This document shows, one piece after another, positions 9,796-17,809 of a stretch of 35,942 nt of DNA; position 1 is the first letter of the stretch; each line of letters begins with the position of its first letter. The position numbers were made by a program, and so were the translations under genes. Source of the stretch: Candidatus Aminicenantota bacterium (lineage in GTDB: Bacteria > Acidobacteriota > Aminicenantia > Aminicenantales > Aminicenantaceae); NCBI GenBank assembly GCA_003648765.1, contig QMPV01000010.1:1-35942 (forward strand), read 5' to 3'. The notes beneath the pieces are model-generated. The model searched no databases. It saw only the letters and a list, made by a program, of their open reading frames with translations, and was not told where the DNA came from.

Positions 9796-12700
9796 TCATT
9801 TAAATTTAACTTTTGTCACTAGACTATAAATAGCTGGAATAACGAAGAGAGTCAAAAAAGTAGTGGCCGTTAAACCACCCATCACCGTAATAGCCATCGG
9901 GGCGCGGAAAGAGGCTCCTTCGGAAGTGGAAATGGCCATGGGTAACATGCCTAAAATGGTGGTCAAAGCCGTAATCAATACCGGACGCAATCGCACAGCG
10001 CAGCCTTGAAGGATGGCCTCCTTGGCTTCAACACCCCGTCTCTTTAATTGATTTATATAGTCAACCATGACAATGCCATTGTTGACCGCAATTCCGGCTA
10101 GCATGACGAAACCAATCAAGACCGGCAGACTAACTGGTTTACCAGCAATTAATAGGGCTAGAATGACACCAATTAACGACAAAGGTACAGTGAACATAAT
10201 CACAAAAGGATGTAGAAAAGATTCAAACTGAGAGGCCATAATCATATAAACAAGCAAAATGGCTAAGAGAAAAGCTCCGGCCATAATCATAAAGGCATCC
10301 TGCATTTCTTCATACTGCCCACCATATTCAATAAAATAGCCTTGCGGGAGAGTGGTCTCCAAGTCTTTCAGGCGACTCTTGATATCTTTAATCACGCTCC
10401 CTAGGTCTCGCCCAGCAATATTTGCGGTCACCTTGACTTCACGGGCTTGATTCTCCCGGGTGATTTGAATCGGGCCCGAGCCTCTCTCTACTTGGGCTAC
10501 CTGATTAACTCGGACTATCTGGCCGGTGGGGGCTAAAATGGGAGTTTTTAAAATATCATCCAATTCATCCCGGAATTCTTCCTTAAATCTCACCCGAATA
10601 TCATACTCTTCGTTGCCCTCGCGATATCGAGTTGCCACTCTTCCCAAGGCAGCGGTTTGAATTGTTTGAGCTATTTGAGCCATCTTTATTCCCAAACGAG
10701 AAGCTTCATCTCGGTTAATGCGCAGATGATACTCGGGTTTGGCTTCGGACAAAGAATGCTTTAGGTCACGCAAACCAGCCACATCTTTAATCCGAGAAAC
10801 AATGGTTTCCGCTATTTCTTTAAGGACTGGAAGTTCCTGGCCGAAAATTTTTATTTCGACAGGATTCTGGGCTCCTCCCATAAACATTTGTCCCAGGTCA
10901 ATCATTTCAAATTTGACACCTTGGAGAGAAGGTAATTCCGAACGTATCTTTTCTGTAAGTTCCAGGTCGGAAAGAGACCGTTTTTCTTTGTCTACTAGGA
11001 CGGCCCAGATGATGCCCTCGTGAGGTCCCGTAGGATTAAACTGTCCCGCAGCCTCGGTAGGATTATCCTCGACCTGAGAGCCGGCTTGGGCCGTAATTAC
11101 CTCAACATCGGGTTCCTGCCTTAGAAGCTTTTCCACCATCTGGACAACCCGATCTGTTTCTTCTAGGGTGCTTCCTACCGGCAACTTGACGGAGAGAACG
11201 ATCATTGAACGATCCATAGGGGGCATAAATTCGGTACCCATAAAAGGAATAATAACCAGAGAAATCACAAACAAACCAAAAACACCCACCAGAACCCACC
11301 GCCGGTGCCGCAAGGATTTGAGTAACCACCGACGATAAAATTCTCTCATTCGGTAGACCCGCTTGCCTTTTTTGCCTTGGTTAGAAAGATTATTTTTATT
11401 GTTTTTATTAGCCTTAAATAGTAAAGAGGCCACCATTGGCACCACCGTCAAAGCTACAAAGAGCGAGGAGATAAGAGAAAAAGCAATAGCCAGGGCTAAG
11501 CCTCGGGTCAACTGACCAGTTATCCCGCGGGCAAAAACCATGGGGAAAAAAACGGCAATAGTGGTTAAAGTGGAAGCGGTAATGGCCATACCCACTTCAG
11601 AAGCACCCAACTTAGCGGCTTGGTTTCGCTCTTCTCCTTCCTCAAGATGGCGGAAGATGTTCTCAATCACCACCACGGCATTATCGACCAACATTCCAAT
11701 TCCTAGGGCCAAGCCGCCCAGCGTCATTAAGTTAATGGTGTATCCGGCTAAATAAAAGGCAATAAAAGTGGTAATTATGGATAAAGGAATGGCCAGAAAT
11801 ATGGTGATAGTGGGCCGCCAATTCCGGAGAAAAACCAGAATAAAGATCATGGCCAGCACACCACCGATGAGAGCATTATTGGCCGTGCGATTGAGAACTT
11901 TTTGAATCATATCCGACTGATCCATAGCTGTGTAAAACTCAATATCAGAAGGCAGATTCTCTCTAATTCGGGCGAGTTCTTTTTTGACCGCCTTGGCGGT
12001 AATCACCGTATTGGCACCAGAGCGTTTGCTAATAAATAAAAACACGCCTTTTTGTCCCTGAATACGGGCTTTATAACGAAAATCCTTAAGAGTATCTTTA
12101 ACTTCAGCCACATCCCGTAAATAAATGGGCGCCCCTGTGGAGGTCAAGCCAACAATAACCTGGCGAATATCATCTAAATTCTGAAACTCACCCATGGTCC
12201 GAACCAAAAATTCCGTTTGCCTTTCGATAATTCGTCCTCCAGGCAAATTAAGATTTTCCAGACGAAGAGCAGCCATAATCTGGTCCAAGGAGAGGTGATA
12301 GGCCTCTAAAGCTGACTGGTCAATTTCCACCAGAATTTCTCGCTCTTCCATCGAGACAACCAACGCCGAAGCCACCCCTTCAATCCGCTCTAAACGCCGG
12401 GCCACTTCGTCTTCAATGATTTTCTTTAATTCAAAAGTAGGTCTGTCGGCCGTTATACCGTAGAAAATTATGGGAAATTGAGAAATATTAAATTTGACTA
12501 CTAAGGGATCGCTAGCTTCTTCGGGTAAATAACTCCGGAATTGACCTAACTGTTCCCGGATGTCTTGGGCCGCAAAATCAAGGTTAGTCCCCCATTCAAA
12601 TTCAACCATAATGACCGAAACACCTTCAGAAGTTATGGAATTAACTTTCTTGACATTGGCCACAGAATTAACCACCTGTTCCAGAGGACGAGTGATAGTA

Positions 12701-12882
12701 TTTTCAATATCTTCAGGAGAGGCTCCAGAATAAGTTGTCACCACTGAAACAGTGGGAAATTCAAGGTCAGGGAAAAAATCTAATCCCAGGCGGGAATAAG
12801 AAATAAAGCCCAAGACAACTAAGATCATGGCCAGCATGGCCGTCGTGACTTTACGATTAACGGAAAACTCTGGAATTTTCAT
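9796..12882 (-). CDS. RND multidrug efflux transporter, HAE-1/AcrB type
   Basis: This 1028-residue inner-membrane proton-driven pump has the usual RND length and double-repeat topology. It starts MKIPEFSVNRKVTTAMLAMILVV (TM1), followed by the periplasmic porter domain (ASPEDIENTITRPLEQ) and a TM2-6 block. TM4 carries GIGMLVDNAVVVIENI: the first proton-relay Asp (about 400) is kept and the second is Asn (401), a variant seen in many non-enterobacterial members. The second half contains VMLAGIAVNNGIVMVDYINQL. ATG at 12882 has AAGGAG seven bases upstream and lies 2 nt after the membrane fusion protein stop; a TTG at 12888 is less likely. It is the last gene of the tetR-tolC-MFP-RND operon. Substrates are unknown. 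Confidence 0.95.
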   Translation of the reverse strand: MKIPEFSVNRKVTTAMLAMILVVLGFISYSRLGLDFFPDLEFPTVSVVTTYSGASPEDIENTITRPLEQVVNSVANVKKVNSITSEGVSVIMVEFEWGTNLDFAAQDIREQLGQFRSYLPEEASDPLVVKFNISQFPIIFYGITADRPTFELKKIIEDEVARRLERIEGVASALVVSMEEREILVEIDQSALEAYHLSLDQIMAALRLENLNLPGGRIIERQTEFLVRTMGEFQNLDDIRQVIVGLTSTGAPIYLRDVAEVKDTLKDFRYKARIQGQKGVFLFISKRSGANTVITAKAVKKELARIRENLPSDIEFYTAMDQSDMIQKVLNRTANNALIGGVLAMIFILVFLRNWRPTITIFLAIPLSIITTFIAFYLAGYTINLMTLGGLALGIGMLVDNAVVVIENIFRHLEEGEERNQAAKLGASEVGMAITASTLTTIAVFFPMVFARGITGQLTRGLALAIAFSLISSLFVALTVVPMVASLLFKANKNNKNNLSNQGKKGKRVYRMREFYRRWLLKSLRHRRWVLVGVFGLFVISLVIIPFMGTEFMPPMDRSMIVLSVKLPVGSTLEETDRVVQMVEKLLRQEPDVEVITAQAGSQVEDNPTEAAGQFNPTGPHEGIIWAVLVDKEKRSLSDLELTEKIRSELPSLQGVKFEMIDLGQMFMGGAQNPVEIKIFGQELPVLKEIAETIVSRIKDVAGLRDLKHSLSEAKPEYHLRINRDEASRLGIKMAQIAQTIQTAALGRVATRYREGNEEYDIRVRFKEEFRDELDDILKTPILAPTGQIVRVNQVAQVERGSGPIQITRENQAREVKVTANIAGRDLGSVIKDIKSRLKDLETTLPQGYFIEYGGQYEEMQDAFMIMAGAFLLAILLVYMIMASQFESFLHPFVIMFTVPLSLIGVILALLIAGKPVSLPVLIGFVMLAGIAVNNGIVMVDYINQLKRRGVEAKEAILQGCAVRLRPVLITALTTILGMLPMAISTSEGASFRAPMAITVMGGLTATTFLTLFVIPAIYSLVTKVKFK

Positions 12883-12884
12883 GG

Positions 12885-13988
12885 TCAATCTCCTTCAATC
12901 CTGACCTTGGCTCCATCAGTCAAACCAAAATTCCCGGCCACAACCACTAACTCGCCAGGTTGAAGGCCGCTTAAAATTTCCACTTTAGTCGAATTCTGCA
13001 AGCCAAGCTTAACCTCTCTCTTATGAGCCACTCCATTTTCCACCACAAAAACATATTTATCTTCAATAATAGCTGACTGAGGCACCACCACTGCCTCCGG
13101 ATGGGGATTAACTTCAATGATTACTTGGCCAAAGGTATTGGGTTTTAACAAAAATTTGGGGTTGGGTACCCAGACTTCAACCCTGAATTTCTTGCTCAAA
13201 GGATCAGCGGTTTGATTGACTACCGCCACTTCCCCTTCAAAGAAGCGATCAGGATAAGCATCTACCCGGAGAAAAGCTCTTTGCTTCTTTTTAAGGCGAA
13301 TGATATCCTCTTGAGAAACATCTATTTTGACCTTAACTTTGGAATAGTCAACCAAAGTCAGAACTCCGGCGTTAGGCGCAAATCCGCCCATCATCGGATT
13401 AATGACATCCCCGACTTCAGCATTACGCGAAGCCACCACTCCAGAAAAAGGCGCCCTCATCCGAGAAACATCTAGATTATGGCGAACAAGATTCAAGGCC
13501 GCTTGGGCCTGGTGTAATTGAGCCTCAGCTGCTTCATAAGCTAATTTTATTTTCTCATATTGCTGCTTGGAGACAGCTTTCTCGGCCATTAATCTCTCCA
13601 TCCTCTCTAGATTTCGTTGAGCATCTTCCCAGTTAGCTCGAGCCACCGCAAGGCCAGCCTCGGCCTGCTTTAGTTGGAGTTCTAGCGTTTTAGTCTCCAA
13701 TTCCGCCAGTAATTGACCCTGGCGGACAAAATCACCTTCGTTAACATAAATGCGAGCTACTTTACCCGCTATTTCTGGAGTTATCGTTACCTGCCGCCAA
13801 GCTTCAATTACTCCAGTATAAGAAATTCTTTCCGCAATCCTCTCCCGAGCCACTCTCACCACCCGGACAGGATTGGGAGCTGCTTCTTTTCGAGATGTAG
13901 TCTTCTCGGGAGCTGAAGAACGACAATGGCTAAAAACTGCGGTTAAAATCACAATTACCCCGAGAAAAGCAACTAGTTTAGTCTTCAT
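12885..13988 (-). CDS. RND efflux membrane fusion protein (HlyD/AcrA family)
   Basis: This 367-residue periplasmic adaptor links the RND pump to TolC. The N-terminus MKTKLVAFLGVIVILTAVFS ends in HC, an imperfect lipobox (Cys22 after His), so either a lipid anchor or a signal anchor is possible. The lipoyl halves (RIAERISYTGVIEAWRQVTI, then GKVARIYVNEGDFVRQGQLLAELE) flank a coiled coil (LEMERLMAEKAVSKQQYEKI region). The beta-barrel and membrane-proximal domains follow (NTFGQVIIEVNPHPEAVVVP). The frame is open to 14036, but ATG 13988 has a strong AAAGGAGG and begins at the signal sequence, so it is chosen. Confidence 0.93.
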   Translation of the reverse strand: MKTKLVAFLGVIVILTAVFSHCRSSAPEKTTSRKEAAPNPVRVVRVARERIAERISYTGVIEAWRQVTITPEIAGKVARIYVNEGDFVRQGQLLAELETKTLELQLKQAEAGLAVARANWEDAQRNLERMERLMAEKAVSKQQYEKIKLAYEAAEAQLHQAQAALNLVRHNLDVSRMRAPFSGVVASRNAEVGDVINPMMGGFAPNAGVLTLVDYSKVKVKIDVSQEDIIRLKKKQRAFLRVDAYPDRFFEGEVAVVNQTADPLSKKFRVEVWVPNPKFLLKPNTFGQVIIEVNPHPEAVVVPQSAIIEDKYVFVVENGVAHKREVKLGLQNSTKVEILSGLQPGELVVVAGNFGLTDGAKVRIEGD

Positions 13989-14035
13989 AACATCCTCCTT
14001 TGTTTGACCTGAGCCTTTTAGAATTTTTCCTTTCA

Positions 14036-15367
14036 TTATTTTCCTCCCAATGGTCCACCCATGGCTTTTTCCAAGGCAGCCTGAGCCATAACATAATCAT
14101 AAAGAGCCTGAGAATAATTAGTTTTGGCTTGGGATAAAGCTGCTTGAGCCGAGCTGACATCCAGAGTGGTCGCCAATCCTTCTTCGTAATTCAATTCGGC
14201 TATTCTCAAGCTCTCGCGAGCCTGCTCAACATTTTTTTCCTGGGAAAGAAGTGATTCCTCGGCTTCTTTCAGGCGAAGCAGAGCTTGAGATACTTCAAAT
14301 TTAATCATATTAATCAAGCCCTCTCTAGTCTTTTCCAGCTCTCTCAGCATAGCCTTCGATTGAGCTACCCGGGCTGAAGTAGCCAGCCCGTTAAAAAGAG
14401 GAATGGTCACCACTAAATTAACCGAATAATAATTAGACCACGTGTCTTTCTTAAAATTGAATCGATCCGCCCAATAGTTAAAATTCCCGGCCACAGCTAC
14501 CGTAGGCAAACCAGAAGCCCGAGCTAACTTGACCATCTCGGCCGTGCGTTGCTTCTGAAAATTCAACTGTAACAATTCAGGTCGATGTTGCAGAGCTCGT
14601 CGGTAACACTCTTCTTCATTTATTTCAAAAGGTTGATATTTTAATTCTCCTTTAATCTCAATGGGAGTTTTCAAATCTAATCCAAGAACAGTTTTCAAAC
14701 TAAGCTCAGCGATTTTTAAATTATTCCGAGCTCGGATAAGTTGGGGCTTTAAATTAGCCAATTGAACTTCTGAACGGAGCAAATCAAACTTGGAAGCTAG
14801 ACCAACCTCATAAAGAGCTTTTACTCTTTGATAATGCTTCTCTGCTACTCCAACTGCCTCTTCGGCTACTTGGACAAACTCTTTGGCCAAAAGATAACCA
14901 TAAAAAGCTCTCTTTGTATTATAAATAGTCTCCTGCTGGGTCTGACGGATTGATTCTTGAGTAGCTTTTAAATTGTATTGGGCCTGTTTGAAATTTGAAG
15001 TTAAACGTCCGCTGGTAAAAAGGGGTAAATTTAAGGATAAGGAAAACTGATAATCCCGGGTAAAATCTATTTCCACTCGCCGCGGCGGTTGTCCCGGGAT
15101 GAAGGAGGGAAATTCAAGTTCCATTACTTTTTCATCTAAGGTGTGCATGCCCTGTGCATTTAAAGAAGGAAAAAACTGAGCGGCAGCTTCCCTAACTAGT
15201 GATTGAGCCGCCTTTAGTCTTTCCCGGGCTGCCTGTTGGTAAGGATTTTTACTCAAGGCTAACTCAACACTTTTTTCAAGGGTTAAGACTAATTTTTGGT
15301 CCGCAAAAGTCATTATTGAAAAAAGCAAAAGTGCCGCCAGAGTTAAAATCAAGATCTTTTTCACCAT
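14036..15367 (-). CDS. TolC-family outer membrane efflux channel
   Basis: This 443-residue outer membrane factor has a signal peptide (VKKILILTLAALLLFSIMTFADQ) and two repeats of the TolC fold. Long coiled-coil helices are visible (SVELALSKNPYQQAARERLK; KHYQRVKALYEVGLASKFDL; AELNYEEGLATTLDVSSAQA). It forms the exit duct of the tripartite pump encoded by the same operon. ATG 15367 follows AAGGAG at seven bases and lies 2 nt after the tetR stop, indicating translational coupling; an in-frame TTG at 15373 is less likely. Confidence 0.93.
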   Translation of the reverse strand: MVKKILILTLAALLLFSIMTFADQKLVLTLEKSVELALSKNPYQQAARERLKAAQSLVREAAAQFFPSLNAQGMHTLDEKVMELEFPSFIPGQPPRRVEIDFTRDYQFSLSLNLPLFTSGRLTSNFKQAQYNLKATQESIRQTQQETIYNTKRAFYGYLLAKEFVQVAEEAVGVAEKHYQRVKALYEVGLASKFDLLRSEVQLANLKPQLIRARNNLKIAELSLKTVLGLDLKTPIEIKGELKYQPFEINEEECYRRALQHRPELLQLNFQKQRTAEMVKLARASGLPTVAVAGNFNYWADRFNFKKDTWSNYYSVNLVVTIPLFNGLATSARVAQSKAMLRELEKTREGLINMIKFEVSQALLRLKEAEESLLSQEKNVEQARESLRIAELNYEEGLATTLDVSSAQAALSQAKTNYSQALYDYVMAQAALEKAMGGPLGGK

Positions 15368-15369
15368 AA

Positions 15370-16041
15370 TCAAACTCCTTGTTTAATCTTCAAGGTCTGT
15401 TTATTCTTGGCTATTCCAAAAAGAAAATATCGACTCACCAGTTCGCTGGCTCGCTGGGTGGAATATTCTTTCCACCGAAAAGGCCCTCGAAAAACAAAGC
15501 CTCTGATTAAACTTCCGAGAACAAAACTTGCGTCTTCTTCATCAACTTGGGTAAAAACTCCGGCTTTGATTCCCTCGCTAATGATGTCGCTTAAAGTCCG
15601 AGAAACATCCTGAAATTTCTTCCGAATAATCTGAGGAACTCGAGGAGGCTGGTTTTCCAGAACTATCTTCCGTCCTTTTTGAGAAATCATTTTTTCCAGG
15701 AAAAAAGCTCGCCCAATATTCTTCTTGTGGTGATAAAAGCGGAAAATACAGTGGACACATTCTTTAATCTTTTCTTCCGGAGTAATATTCTTTAAACGTA
15801 TCTCAGCCAATTGCGAAGCCAATTCCTGAAGAGTTTTGAGAATTACATGAAAAAACAATTCTTGCTTTCCTTGAAAATAACGATAAAGAGTTGCTTTGGA
15901 AAACTGAGCTTCATGAGCAATTTGATCCATTGTTGTCTGACTATAACCATAACGAGCAAAAATCTCCTCGGCTACTTCTAGAATAAAATTACGATTTTGT
16001 TGATATCTAAGTTCACGCCGTTTCTTCCTCAAATCTCTCAT
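15370..16041 (-). CDS. TetR/AcrR-family repressor of the efflux operon
   Basis: This 223-residue regulator has an N-terminal TetR helix-turn-helix (ILEVAEEIFARYGYSQTTMDQIAHEA, then FSKATLYRYFQGKQELFFHV, residues about 19-68). A helical ligand-binding and dimerisation domain follows. It is the first gene of the operon and is immediately followed by tolC, MFP and RND genes. The layout implies autoregulation and drug-induced derepression of the pump. The leader upstream carries three palindromic sites that fit a TetR operator. ATG 16041 is preceded by AAGGTGAG. Confidence 0.93.
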   Translation of the reverse strand: MRDLRKKRRELRYQQNRNFILEVAEEIFARYGYSQTTMDQIAHEAQFSKATLYRYFQGKQELFFHVILKTLQELASQLAEIRLKNITPEEKIKECVHCIFRFYHHKKNIGRAFFLEKMISQKGRKIVLENQPPRVPQIIRKKFQDVSRTLSDIISEGIKAGVFTQVDEEDASFVLGSLIRGFVFRGPFRWKEYSTQRASELVSRYFLFGIAKNKQTLKIKQGV

Positions 16042-16060
16042 TTTCTCACCTTAAAAATCA

Positions 16061-16116
16061 AAACTAGTAAGTATTAACATTAAACTAATTAGTTTCATTT
16101 TTGAACTGGCTAGTTA
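16061..16116. promoter_or_regulatory. Triple TetR-type operator, 21-bp periodic
   Basis: Three 14-bp dyads have centres exactly 21 bp apart: AAACTAGTAAGTAT (16061-16074, imperfect), AAACTAATTAGTTT (16082-16095, perfect palindrome) and GAACTGGCTAGTTA (16103-16116, near-perfect in its core). The shared half-site is AACT/AGTT. The first to be transcribed overlaps the predicted start site and the others lie in the leader. The 21-bp step equals two helical turns, so bound dimers would stack on one DNA face. The assigned ligand is the TetR protein encoded next door. Confidence 0.7.
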
Positions 16117-16144
16117 AATTAGCGCATCTTAATTTATTTGTCAA
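16116..16144 (-). promoter_or_regulatory. tetR-tolC-MFP-RND operon promoter
   Basis: On the minus strand a perfect TTGACA (16139-16144), a 17-nt spacer and TAATTT (16116-16121) are followed directly by the operator array. The predicted start near 16109 falls in the first dyad, an arrangement that suits steric repression. Confidence 0.75.
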
Positions 16145-16509
16145 TACTTAGCTTAAATTATCCACTTCCCCCTAAAATTCGCTGAAATTGCTTTAGCAAA
16201 AAGAAGCCAAATAAGAAAAAAGACAATTGCGAGAATTTTAAGTAGGCAGTGTGAAGATCCCCGAGGGAAGATAAACCTCTACCAACCCACCCAAACTTTT
16301 ATTTAATCATCGCCCTGAAAAAAGACTGCTTTTTGGTCGCCTCATTAAATTGAGCAAGATTATTACCTGCCCAAAAATTTCTAGCGAGCAGGGATTCTCT
16401 TTTTTAATGCCAAAAATTCCCGGCCGAGATCCTTGGCTATTTAAGGCAAATACTTCTAAAATAAAAGTCAAAAATACAGGGTCACTTAGATGAAGGAAGG
16501 AGGATGTCC

Positions 16510-16860
16510 ATGTGCGAAACTATAAAAGACTTCCAAGAATTCCGCGAAAAAATGAATCAGCGGATTTTAGCTAGTGGTCATCTGGAAATAAAACGTTTTT
16601 TCGCCTTAGACTCAGCCGCTTATCGAGACCAGGCCTTACCAGCCAAAACTAAGGAACTCTTAGGACTTGTAGCTTCTCTAGTCTTACGGTGTAATGATTG
16701 TGTCACTTACCATCTTCTCCGCTGTGTCGAGGTGGGGTATTCTGATGAAGAAATCATTGATGCCTTCAATGTAGCTTTGGTGGTGGGAGGTTCCATCATC
16801 ATTCCTCATCTGCGATTAGCTTTCGCCCGGCTGGATGAAATTAGGCAAAACTCTAATTAA
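16510..16860 (+). CDS. Carboxymuconolactone decarboxylase/AhpD-like protein
   Basis: This 116-residue all-helical protein has the AhpD-type redox motif in VLRCNDCVTYHLLRC: CxxC at about residues 59-62 plus the following His. The region ALPAKTKELLGLVASLVLRC is typical of the CMD family. Such proteins act as small thiol peroxidase or disulfide relay components, or belong to uncharacterised CMD groups. Two in-frame ATGs exist; that at 16504 abuts the GGAGG, while 16510 has six bases of spacing and is preferred. The gene stands alone and is convergent with xerD. Confidence 0.85.
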   Translation: MCETIKDFQEFREKMNQRILASGHLEIKRFFALDSAAYRDQALPAKTKELLGLVASLVLRCNDCVTYHLLRCVEVGYSDEEIIDAFNVALVVGGSIIIPHLRLAFARLDEIRQNSN

Positions 16861-16903: not shown

Positions 16904-17809
16904 TTAAGCCCGAGGATGGAATTGGTCATAAACCTTTCGCAAACGAGCTTGGGTGACATGAGTATAAATTTGGGTGGTAGTTATCTGACTGTGACCCAGC
17001 ATTAATTGGACTGAACGGAGATCAGCCCCTCGTTCCAACAAATGGGTGGCAAAAGAATGCCTTAAGATATGGGGACTGACCTTAGTTTTTATTCCGGCTC
17101 GAAGGCAATATTTCCGGATAATTTTCCATACTGCCTGACGAGTCAACCCTTTTCCCCAGGAAGAAAGAAACAATTTGGAACTCCCTTTTTTCAGCCATAA
17201 GGGACGAACTTGAGAGATATATCCTTGGACATGAAAGAGGGCAGTCTGACCCACAGGAACAATTCTCTCCTTATTGCCCTTGCCTCGACAAATTAAAAAG
17301 CCCTCATCAAAGCGAAGGTCATCCACTCTAAGTTCTATCACCTCTGAAACCCGAAGCCCGGTAGCATACATTAACTCCAGCAAAGCTCTATCCCTCAACC
17401 CCACCGGGGTTTTCAAGTCGGGTTGCCTCAACAATTTTTCCACTTCCTCCACAGTCAAAAACTCGGGCAGAGACTTCCACGCTTTAGGGGCTGAAAAACT
17501 GGCCGCTGGATTCTTTTTGAGATATCCCTCCAGGACCATCCAGCGGAAAAATGATTTTAAAGAGGAAAGGCAGCGGGCTATTGTTTTAGGAGAGAGACCC
17601 CGGCGACTCAATTGTCGGATGAAAAAGGTGATTTCATGTTCCTGTATCTTAGAGAGAAAAAGTTTCTTCTGGTTTAAATATTGAGTAAATTTCGCCAAAT
17701 CTTGGCTATAAGCAGAGATGGTGTTGGGAGCCAGCCCCTTCTCTACGGTTAGATATTCTAAGAATAATTGCACAGCCTTCTCTGGAGAAGGTACCCGGCT
17801 ATTTTTCAT
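16904..17809 (-). CDS. xerD: Tyrosine recombinase XerD
   Basis: This 301-residue recombinase resolves chromosome dimers at dif during division. The N-terminal SAM-like core-binding domain is FLEYLTVEKGLAPNTISAYS (residues about 16-35). The catalytic domain keeps all expected residues: Arg153 (TGLRVSE), Lys177 (GKGNK), His247 and Arg250 (HILRHSFATHLL), His273 (LGHSQITTTQ) and nucleophile Tyr282 (IYTHV). Length and N-terminal pattern favour XerD over XerC. The ATG at 17809 overlaps the stop of the upstream hydrolase gene by four bases, so the two are translationally coupled. Confidence 0.9.
   Translation of the reverse strand: MKNSRVPSPEKAVQLFLEYLTVEKGLAPNTISAYSQDLAKFTQYLNQKKLFLSKIQEHEITFFIRQLSRRGLSPKTIARCLSSLKSFFRWMVLEGYLKKNPAASFSAPKAWKSLPEFLTVEEVEKLLRQPDLKTPVGLRDRALLELMYATGLRVSEVIELRVDDLRFDEGFLICRGKGNKERIVPVGQTALFHVQGYISQVRPLWLKKGSSKLFLSSWGKGLTRQAVWKIIRKYCLRAGIKTKVSPHILRHSFATHLLERGADLRSVQLMLGHSQITTTQIYTHVTQARLRKVYDQFHPRA

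Follow-up and report, generated by a model that had tools for sequence, protein, structure and literature searches.

Upstream of an efflux operon of a deep-branching Aminicenantota bacterium, three AACT-N4-AGTT dyads succeed one another at exact 21-bp steps in front of the first gene, tetR. We put at about 85% the probability that these dyads, lying on one face of the DNA, serve as the operator of the adjacent TetR protein, which would repress its own gene together with the pump, probably with contacts between neighbouring dimers. The window, by which we mean the whole analysed stretch of 35,942 nucleotides, is contig C10 of a 2.77-Mb genome, whose close relatives (L039 and L040) are MAGs named Candidatus Aminicenantes. 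The operon occupies its minus strand, and the genes, overlapping at their ends, follow in the order tetR – OEP/TolC – RND adaptor – RND permease. The features considered below are, in the direction of transcription:

16139–16144, minus strand: −35 hexamer TTGACA, read from the sequence; TTGACA also in relatives
16116–16121, minus strand: −10 hexamer TAATTT, read from the sequence; 3/6 matches to TATAAT, 17-bp spacer from the −35
16103–16116, minus strand: predicted operator site 1, 14-bp dyad with core AACTAGCCAGTT; 8/8 half-site bases, kept in relatives
16082–16095, minus strand: predicted operator site 2, perfect 14-bp palindrome AAACTAATTAGTTT, read from the sequence; within the leader
16061–16074, minus strand: predicted operator site 3, within the leader and ahead of the ribosome-binding site, core TACTTACTAGTT; 7/8 half-site bases
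16045–16052, minus strand: probable Shine-Dalgarno sequence AAGGTGAG, apart from site 3; same layout in the sister genome (L010)
15370–16041, minus strand: tetR, first gene of the operon, TetR/AcrR-family regulator of 223 aa (TetR_N 5.4e-17, TetR_C_24 7.6e-6)
14036–15373, minus strand: outer-membrane efflux protein (TolC/OEP) gene (PF02321, 3.8e-71)
12885–14036, minus strand: RND periplasmic adaptor (MFP) gene (TIGR01730, 1.7e-81, above its cut-off)
9796–12888, minus strand: RND permease gene of the AcrB/AcrD/AcrF family (PF00873, 3.2e-279)

Upstream of the operon lie a gene of the carboxymuconolactone decarboxylase family (16504–16860) and a gene (16904–17809) that by eye resembles a XerD-like tyrosine recombinase; both genes have relatives next to tetR in many loci of family f1.

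The dyads and the promoter of the operon

The dyads are centred at 16067.5, 16088.5 and 16109.5. On the plus strand they read AAACTAGTAAGTAT (16061–16074), AAACTAATTAGTTT (16082–16095) and GAACTGGCTAGTTA (16103–16116), and their minus-strand cores, taken in the order of transcription, are AACTAGCCAGTT, AACTAATTAGTT and TACTTACTAGTT, which agree with AACT-N4-AGTT at 8, 8 and 7 of the 8 half-site bases, respectively. Direct re-reading of the sequence confirmed what the first-pass annotation had described, namely 14-bp dyads with AACT/AGTT half-sites at these centres and 21-bp steps, the middle one being a perfect palindrome; those of sites 1 and 3 are imperfect. The arrangement is beyond chance expectation: its three-site score is 23/24, whereas dinucleotide shuffles of this leader yielded at most 18 in 5000 trials (0/5000 reached 23) and, with any even spacing from 12 to 40 bp allowed, at most 19 in 2000 (0/2000 reached 23). 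Throughout the genome, the pattern AACT-N4-AGTT-N9-AACT-N4-AGTT, with no more than two mismatches over the 16 fixed bases, occurs solely in this leader.

In the direction of the operon, TTGACA is followed by 17 bp, TAATTT, sites 1 to 3, AAGGTGAG and the ATG at 16041. The usual distance between the −10 hexamer and the start of transcription places the predicted start near 16109, inside site 1. Hence site 1, which abuts the −10 hexamer, would straddle the start, and sites 2 and 3 would lie in the leader. The promoter had also been called strong; the positions of both hexamers stand, but the adjective does not, since TAATTT shares just 3/6 bases with TATAAT and the promoter scan did not list a window promoter with this hexamer. 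As for the 12-nt inverted repeat (92%) that joins the regions of site 3 and of the −35 hexamer (16068–16079 and 16139–16150), it is probably due to chance.

Conservation of the 21-bp step in Aminicenantia

The comparison with other genomes was based on the TetR protein, which was detected in 58 of 60 relatives (E ≤ 0.001). A profile (A1) built from 18 orthologous TetR proteins and searched over 141 genomes of the class separated orthologues (E ≤ 5.0e-34) from paralogues (E ≥ 5.8e-28). The 83 orthologue loci gathered (30, L009–L038, and 53, L099–L151) provided 81 leaders after L115 and L151, with less than 100 bp upstream, had been dropped; 20 leaders out of the 51 paralogue places listed, with E from 5.8e-28 to 1e-20, served as a control. 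For every spacing between 13 and 45 bp the best dyad pair was scored out of 16, a strong pair being one of at least 14/16, and the cut-off for a three-site array was 17/24.

Among the 81 orthologue leaders of the class Aminicenantia, strong pairs were found at 21 bp in 64, at 42 bp in 25, at 33 bp in five, at 14 bp in three, at 22 bp in two, and at 20, 31 and 32 bp in none, these spacing counts not being independent events, as the leaders come from related genomes. The best spacing per leader was 21 bp alone in 57 cases, 21 bp in a tie in 16, 42 bp in three and some other value in five. No paralogue leader (0/20) reached 14/16 at any spacing from 13 to 45 bp, by which the array as a general trait of TetR genes is ruled out. 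The comparative data (64/81 orthologue leaders versus 0/20 paralogue ones) strongly support the original suggestion of a three-site, same-face array belonging to the adjacent TetR, and the dyads and their spacing, whose loss in close relatives the first-pass annotation had named as a finding that would speak against it, are retained in most of these leaders.

Three phased sites scoring at least 17/24 are present in 72 of the 81 leaders, from eight families (29 in f1, 29 in f6, five in f2, four in f4, two in f5 and one each in f3, f7 and f10). The number of consecutive phased sites with at least 6/8 bases is one in two of these leaders, two in 25, three in 44 and four in one; the latter (L022) is doubtful, its first unit lying upstream of the presumed site 1. 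Three good sites per array are not obligatory. Nine leaders fall below the cut-off: L138, L142 and L145 have two sites each, L119 has two after its start was moved, L144 has a single good site, L037 is degenerate with a spacing of 22 bp, L104 is masked by N, and in L129 no array was found; in L017 the array is missing beside tetR, and a tetR-less array sits on another contig of the same genome.

Of the 72 leaders, 70 contain TTGACA (at least 5/6). Its distance from site 1 depends on the family, being 29 bp in 22 of the 28 f1 leaders measured, 33–35 bp in 27 of the 29 f6 leaders and 38–40 bp in those measured from f2, f3 and f4. The deviating values of f5 (17 and 18) and of two f6 leaders (13) are consistent with a chain whose start was set a unit too far upstream. 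The last site precedes the start codon by 3 to 64 nt. Thus, among the distances between promoter, array and start codon, the 21-bp step alone stays constant. Since the distance from TTGACA to site 1 differs between families, an origin of the period as a by-product of the conservation of a shared promoter is ruled out.

Each dyad might nevertheless be bound independently, the additional sites just raising occupancy and the dimers having no contact with one another. The number of good sites, which varies and is mostly two or three, would agree with such binding, and extra sites alone already tighten repression. We regard it, however, as rather unlikely, because it does not explain why, over 81 leaders, the step should be 21 bp and hardly ever 20, 22, 31 or 32 bp, nor why it should stay the same while the distances to the promoter and to the start codon drift. 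The near absence of 20, 22, 31 and 32 bp, spacings that would keep the dyads on nearly the same face, favours contacts between dimers, and the spacing therefore suggests cooperative binding.

The consensus unit over the 72 leaders is TAAACT-N4-AGTTTA. The half-site bases carry 0.5–2.0 bits, and the N4 and linker centres mostly less than 0.5. At site 2 the second A and the C of the left arm, as well as the G and the first T of the right arm, are invariant in all 72 leaders; the left arm of site 1 is conserved too (1.2–1.4 bits for ACT). In the sister genome, with a TetR 79% identical to that of the window, none of the 24 half-site bases is changed versus 11 of the 30 other bases (p = 6e-4). With near-random linkers separating the half-sites, the leaders have diverged far enough for selection to make the half-sites stand out. 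All the leaders come from one class, and the similarity of their arrays could be ascribed to the shared ancestry of a functionless leader; we consider this extremely improbable, given that half-sites are kept while linkers and N4 are nearly randomized, that TetR identity within the set falls to about 27–30%, and that one genome (G010, see below) carries the array ahead of a second operon as well. In family f4 the fourth half-site base varies dyad-symmetrically (AACC/GGTT), which is suggestive only.

The half-sites alternate at about 10.5 bp, which creates a second set of dyad axes between the named ones, and the flanks TTTA/TAAA are conserved as well. The protein might then use another register, with its axis between dyads (AGTTTA-N5-TAAACT), or bind as overlapping pairs of dimers on opposite faces, like QacR or CprB. 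Such a register seems improbable to us: the outermost half-sites, including the left arm of site 1 with its 1.2–1.4 bits for ACT, are also conserved, and the arrays, the two-site ones of L146 and L152 among them, are built of whole AACT-N4-AGTT units. Besides, the leaders contain evenly repeated separate dyads at 21 bp, which argues against the layout of QacR and CprB on one short site, and the dimers of CprB, bound to a single 22-bp site from opposite sides and not touching each other, would not yield a 21-bp tandem (PMC4150764).

As two of the dyads lie in the transcribed leader, they could also be taken for RNA hairpins of an attenuator or of a riboswitch-like element. The fold energy of the 72 leaders is indeed below that of mononucleotide shuffles (mean z −1.6), as any palindrome gives, but the window leader folds no better than its dinucleotide shuffles (z 0.15), and at the fourth base of site 2 the pair-breaking changes of the left arm (5) are not rarer than the wobble-keeping changes of the right arm (2). 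This reading, scarcely credible also in view of site 1 straddling the predicted start, was rejected on the basis of the z value of 0.15 and the substitution pattern of site 2.

Leaving hairpins aside, the proposed operator has a further relation to translation, for in many relatives site 3 overlaps or merges with the Shine-Dalgarno sequence. Its right arm has GG and not AG in 30 of the 44 leaders where it lies 3–12 nt before the start codon and in 4 of the 26 where it lies farther (Fisher p = 2e-5, kinship between leaders being ignored); the same GG letters occur at site 1 in 11 of 63 leaders and at site 2 in 7 of 72. This bias near the start codon points to the last half-site having been bent towards the Shine-Dalgarno sequence in many relatives. 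Where operator and ribosome-binding site overlap, the same stretch of DNA would neatly illustrate selection for two functions at once. A separate Shine-Dalgarno sequence is present downstream of site 3 in the window and in the sister genome, where site 3 retains AGTT. In L021 (G013), site 3 is separated from the start codon by an extra palindrome of ~20 bp, GGATAATTCATGAATTATCC, which gives the impression of a small element inserted at the end of the array.

The regulator and the distribution of its putative operator

With the N-terminal helix-turn-helix domain of the TetR family (PF00440) the window protein scores 61.8 bits against a curated cut-off of 24, and with the C-terminal domain PF17932 it scores marginally above the cut-off (26.6 against 26.4 bits). 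Its AlphaFold2 model (pLDDT 85.6) is nearly all helical and has the TetR fold, and the best PDB matches to this model are TetR-family regulators (E 2.5e-7; the highest TMq shown is 0.75, for 4nel). None of the named NCBIfam equivalogs scored above its cut-off with this protein: BetI, the top-scoring one, reached 54.7 against 201.3, MtrR 39.6 against 280 and AcrR 29.8 against 271. The protein is a member of the TetR/AcrR family without membership of any named equivalog. A relative of the OEP gene lies downstream of tetR at 81 of the 83 orthologue loci, the exceptions (L149 and L150) being truncated by the ends of the contig or stretch. The stretch QFSKAT, which we take to be the recognition helix of the TetR family, is invariant in the 18 aligned TetR proteins of A1, in keeping with the conserved half-site.

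The array is tied to this clade of TetR. In the class, 39 of the 45 strict two-site places are found within 200 bp upstream of a TetR orthologue, and the remaining six are in G010 (contig C147), G022 (C369), G107, G098, G115 and G116. Counted by genomes, the strict array is present in 36 of 81 with an orthologue versus 4 of 61 without it (G107, G098, G115 and G116); the place in G098 looks by eye like a simple repeat. These genomes contain other TetR paralogues, any of which might be supposed to bind the array, but a different regulator is very unlikely in view of these two counts, of the lack of the array in all 20 paralogue leaders and of the fact that, in one of the four genomes without an orthologue (G107), the array adjoins a distant TetR. 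Across the phylum, the strict two-site pattern was found in 23 of 396 genomes, which comprise 14 of the 47 class members drawn and 9 of the 349 others, and, by eye, most of these nine matches outside the class resemble repeats, simple or palindromic. In five leaders of more distant TetR genes (L192, L193, L194, L196 and L202), the best two-site scores were 9–11 of 16.

In G022, the array on contig C369 has no tetR in the stretch read, and tetR is located on C83 without an array; this separation may reflect either an insertion or an assembly break. A short sequence around GTGAATAATCCA recurs near the leaders L017, L058 (G022), L015 and L153, in several genomes of family f1, and in G022 it is close to the point where the array and tetR are separated. 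A mobile element or an interspersed repeat may account for it.

On contig C147 of G010 (L153, 1422–1474; L206), three sites are arrayed ahead of an OEP gene, and TTGACA lies 30 bp before the first of them. The OEP gene is succeeded by an adaptor gene and by a frame for an RND permease, at least 1109 aa long (the genes were named by eye and by OEP similarity), and no tetR intervenes between the array and these genes. The tetR operon of the same genome has an array of its own (L034). The presence of arrays at both operons suggests that the array is a module that can act in trans, and the second OEP-MFP-RND operon is likely a trans target of the repressor. In G107 (family f11), a two-site array lies upstream of a distant TetR gene (L152, 591–1255) followed by an OEP gene, its two phased dyads coming directly after TATAAT. 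Judging from this genome, the phased dyads may predate the orthologue group on which the present comparison is based.

Proposed repression and related systems

We propose that one repressor dimer would bind each TAAACT-N4-AGTTTA site. With 21 bp corresponding to two helical turns, the dimers would be aligned along the same face of the helix, beginning at the start site and continuing into the leader, at 71 Å from one another (21 × 3.4 Å). The dimer on site 1 would exclude RNA polymerase, those on sites 2 and 3 would lengthen the block, and contacts between neighbours would raise occupancy, the whole row providing for steep and tight autorepression of tetR and the pump. Release by a ligand would then switch on tetR together with the OEP-MFP-RND pump. 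The roadblock to elongating polymerase that had been suggested for the leader sites is possible but not needed, because site 1 lies on the start site and plain occlusion of RNA polymerase would be enough.

Among the known systems, EthR of Mycobacterium tuberculosis, which reportedly octamerizes cooperatively on its operator, is similar in that several TetR-family dimers assemble on one control region. The EthR operator is one long operator rather than a set of evenly spaced palindromes.

TetR-family regulators with three operators have been published, namely SCO7222 and ActR of Streptomyces (PMC3511530); the statement of the first-pass annotation that repressors of this family usually bind one or two palindromes was thus fair as a rule but not without exceptions. 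Common to these regulators and to the window are a TetR-family protein, three palindromes in one control region (16061–16116 in the window) and a regulator gene adjoining its target; three EMSA complexes are described for SCO7222 and ActR (PMC3511530). However, they act on divergent gene pairs and their palindromes have unrelated sequences, whereas in Aminicenantia tetR is first in the operon that it would repress; the available part of the paper states no fixed step for them, in contrast to the 21 bp kept class-wide here (PMC3511530). Tn10 TetR, dimers of which bind the tandem palindromic 15-bp operators O1 and O2, likewise regulates an efflux pump along with its own gene, but its two operators lie between divergent genes and, as described there, form no three-site 21-bp array (PMC3511530).

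QacR, which controls a multidrug pump, and CprB bind DNA cooperatively as a dimer of dimers; unlike in the proposed complex, the two dimers sit across a single short site from each other, and those of CprB make no contact (PMC4150764). FasR of M. tuberculosis, a fold neighbour of the window TetR model, binds three inverted repeats, although it is an activator of fatty-acid synthesis and not an efflux repressor, and the available text gives no spacing for its repeats (PMC7382501). In the accessible portions of the respective papers, sequence analysis of the SmvR promoter revealed three palindromes, one of them a likely site (PMC6362122), and M. abscessus MAB_4384 has one 27-bp palindrome with two dimers in the authors' model (PMC5895659), while those on MtrR (PMC8053128) and EefR (PMC12482432) contain nothing closer to the window array. 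In the titles and abstract openings listed by searches of the open-licence PMC literature we found no TetR operators of Aminicenantes, no three-site TetR array with a 21-bp step and no study of this TetR clade. Three-operator regulators of the family being already known, the window array is a variant with a fixed 21-bp step.

More tentatively, and with chances somewhat below even, the arrays may follow a phase-locked operator grammar, in which side-by-side dimers with a two-turn pitch would build up a short filament reaching from the start of transcription as far as the ribosome-binding site; direct contact between dimers would set the 21-bp step, the number of units would tune the strength of repression, and the last unit would double as a Shine-Dalgarno sequence in many relatives.

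Operators of the TetR family are usually described as one or two palindromes, case by case. Here, with all the neighbouring distances drifting, a ruler-exact array is kept in no fewer than eight families of a class that has received little study, which makes it a clear and cheap test case for lateral cooperation of TetR-family dimers along DNA. The motif TAAACT-N4-AGTTTA repeated every 21 bp may also be used for finding more regulon members in Aminicenantia.
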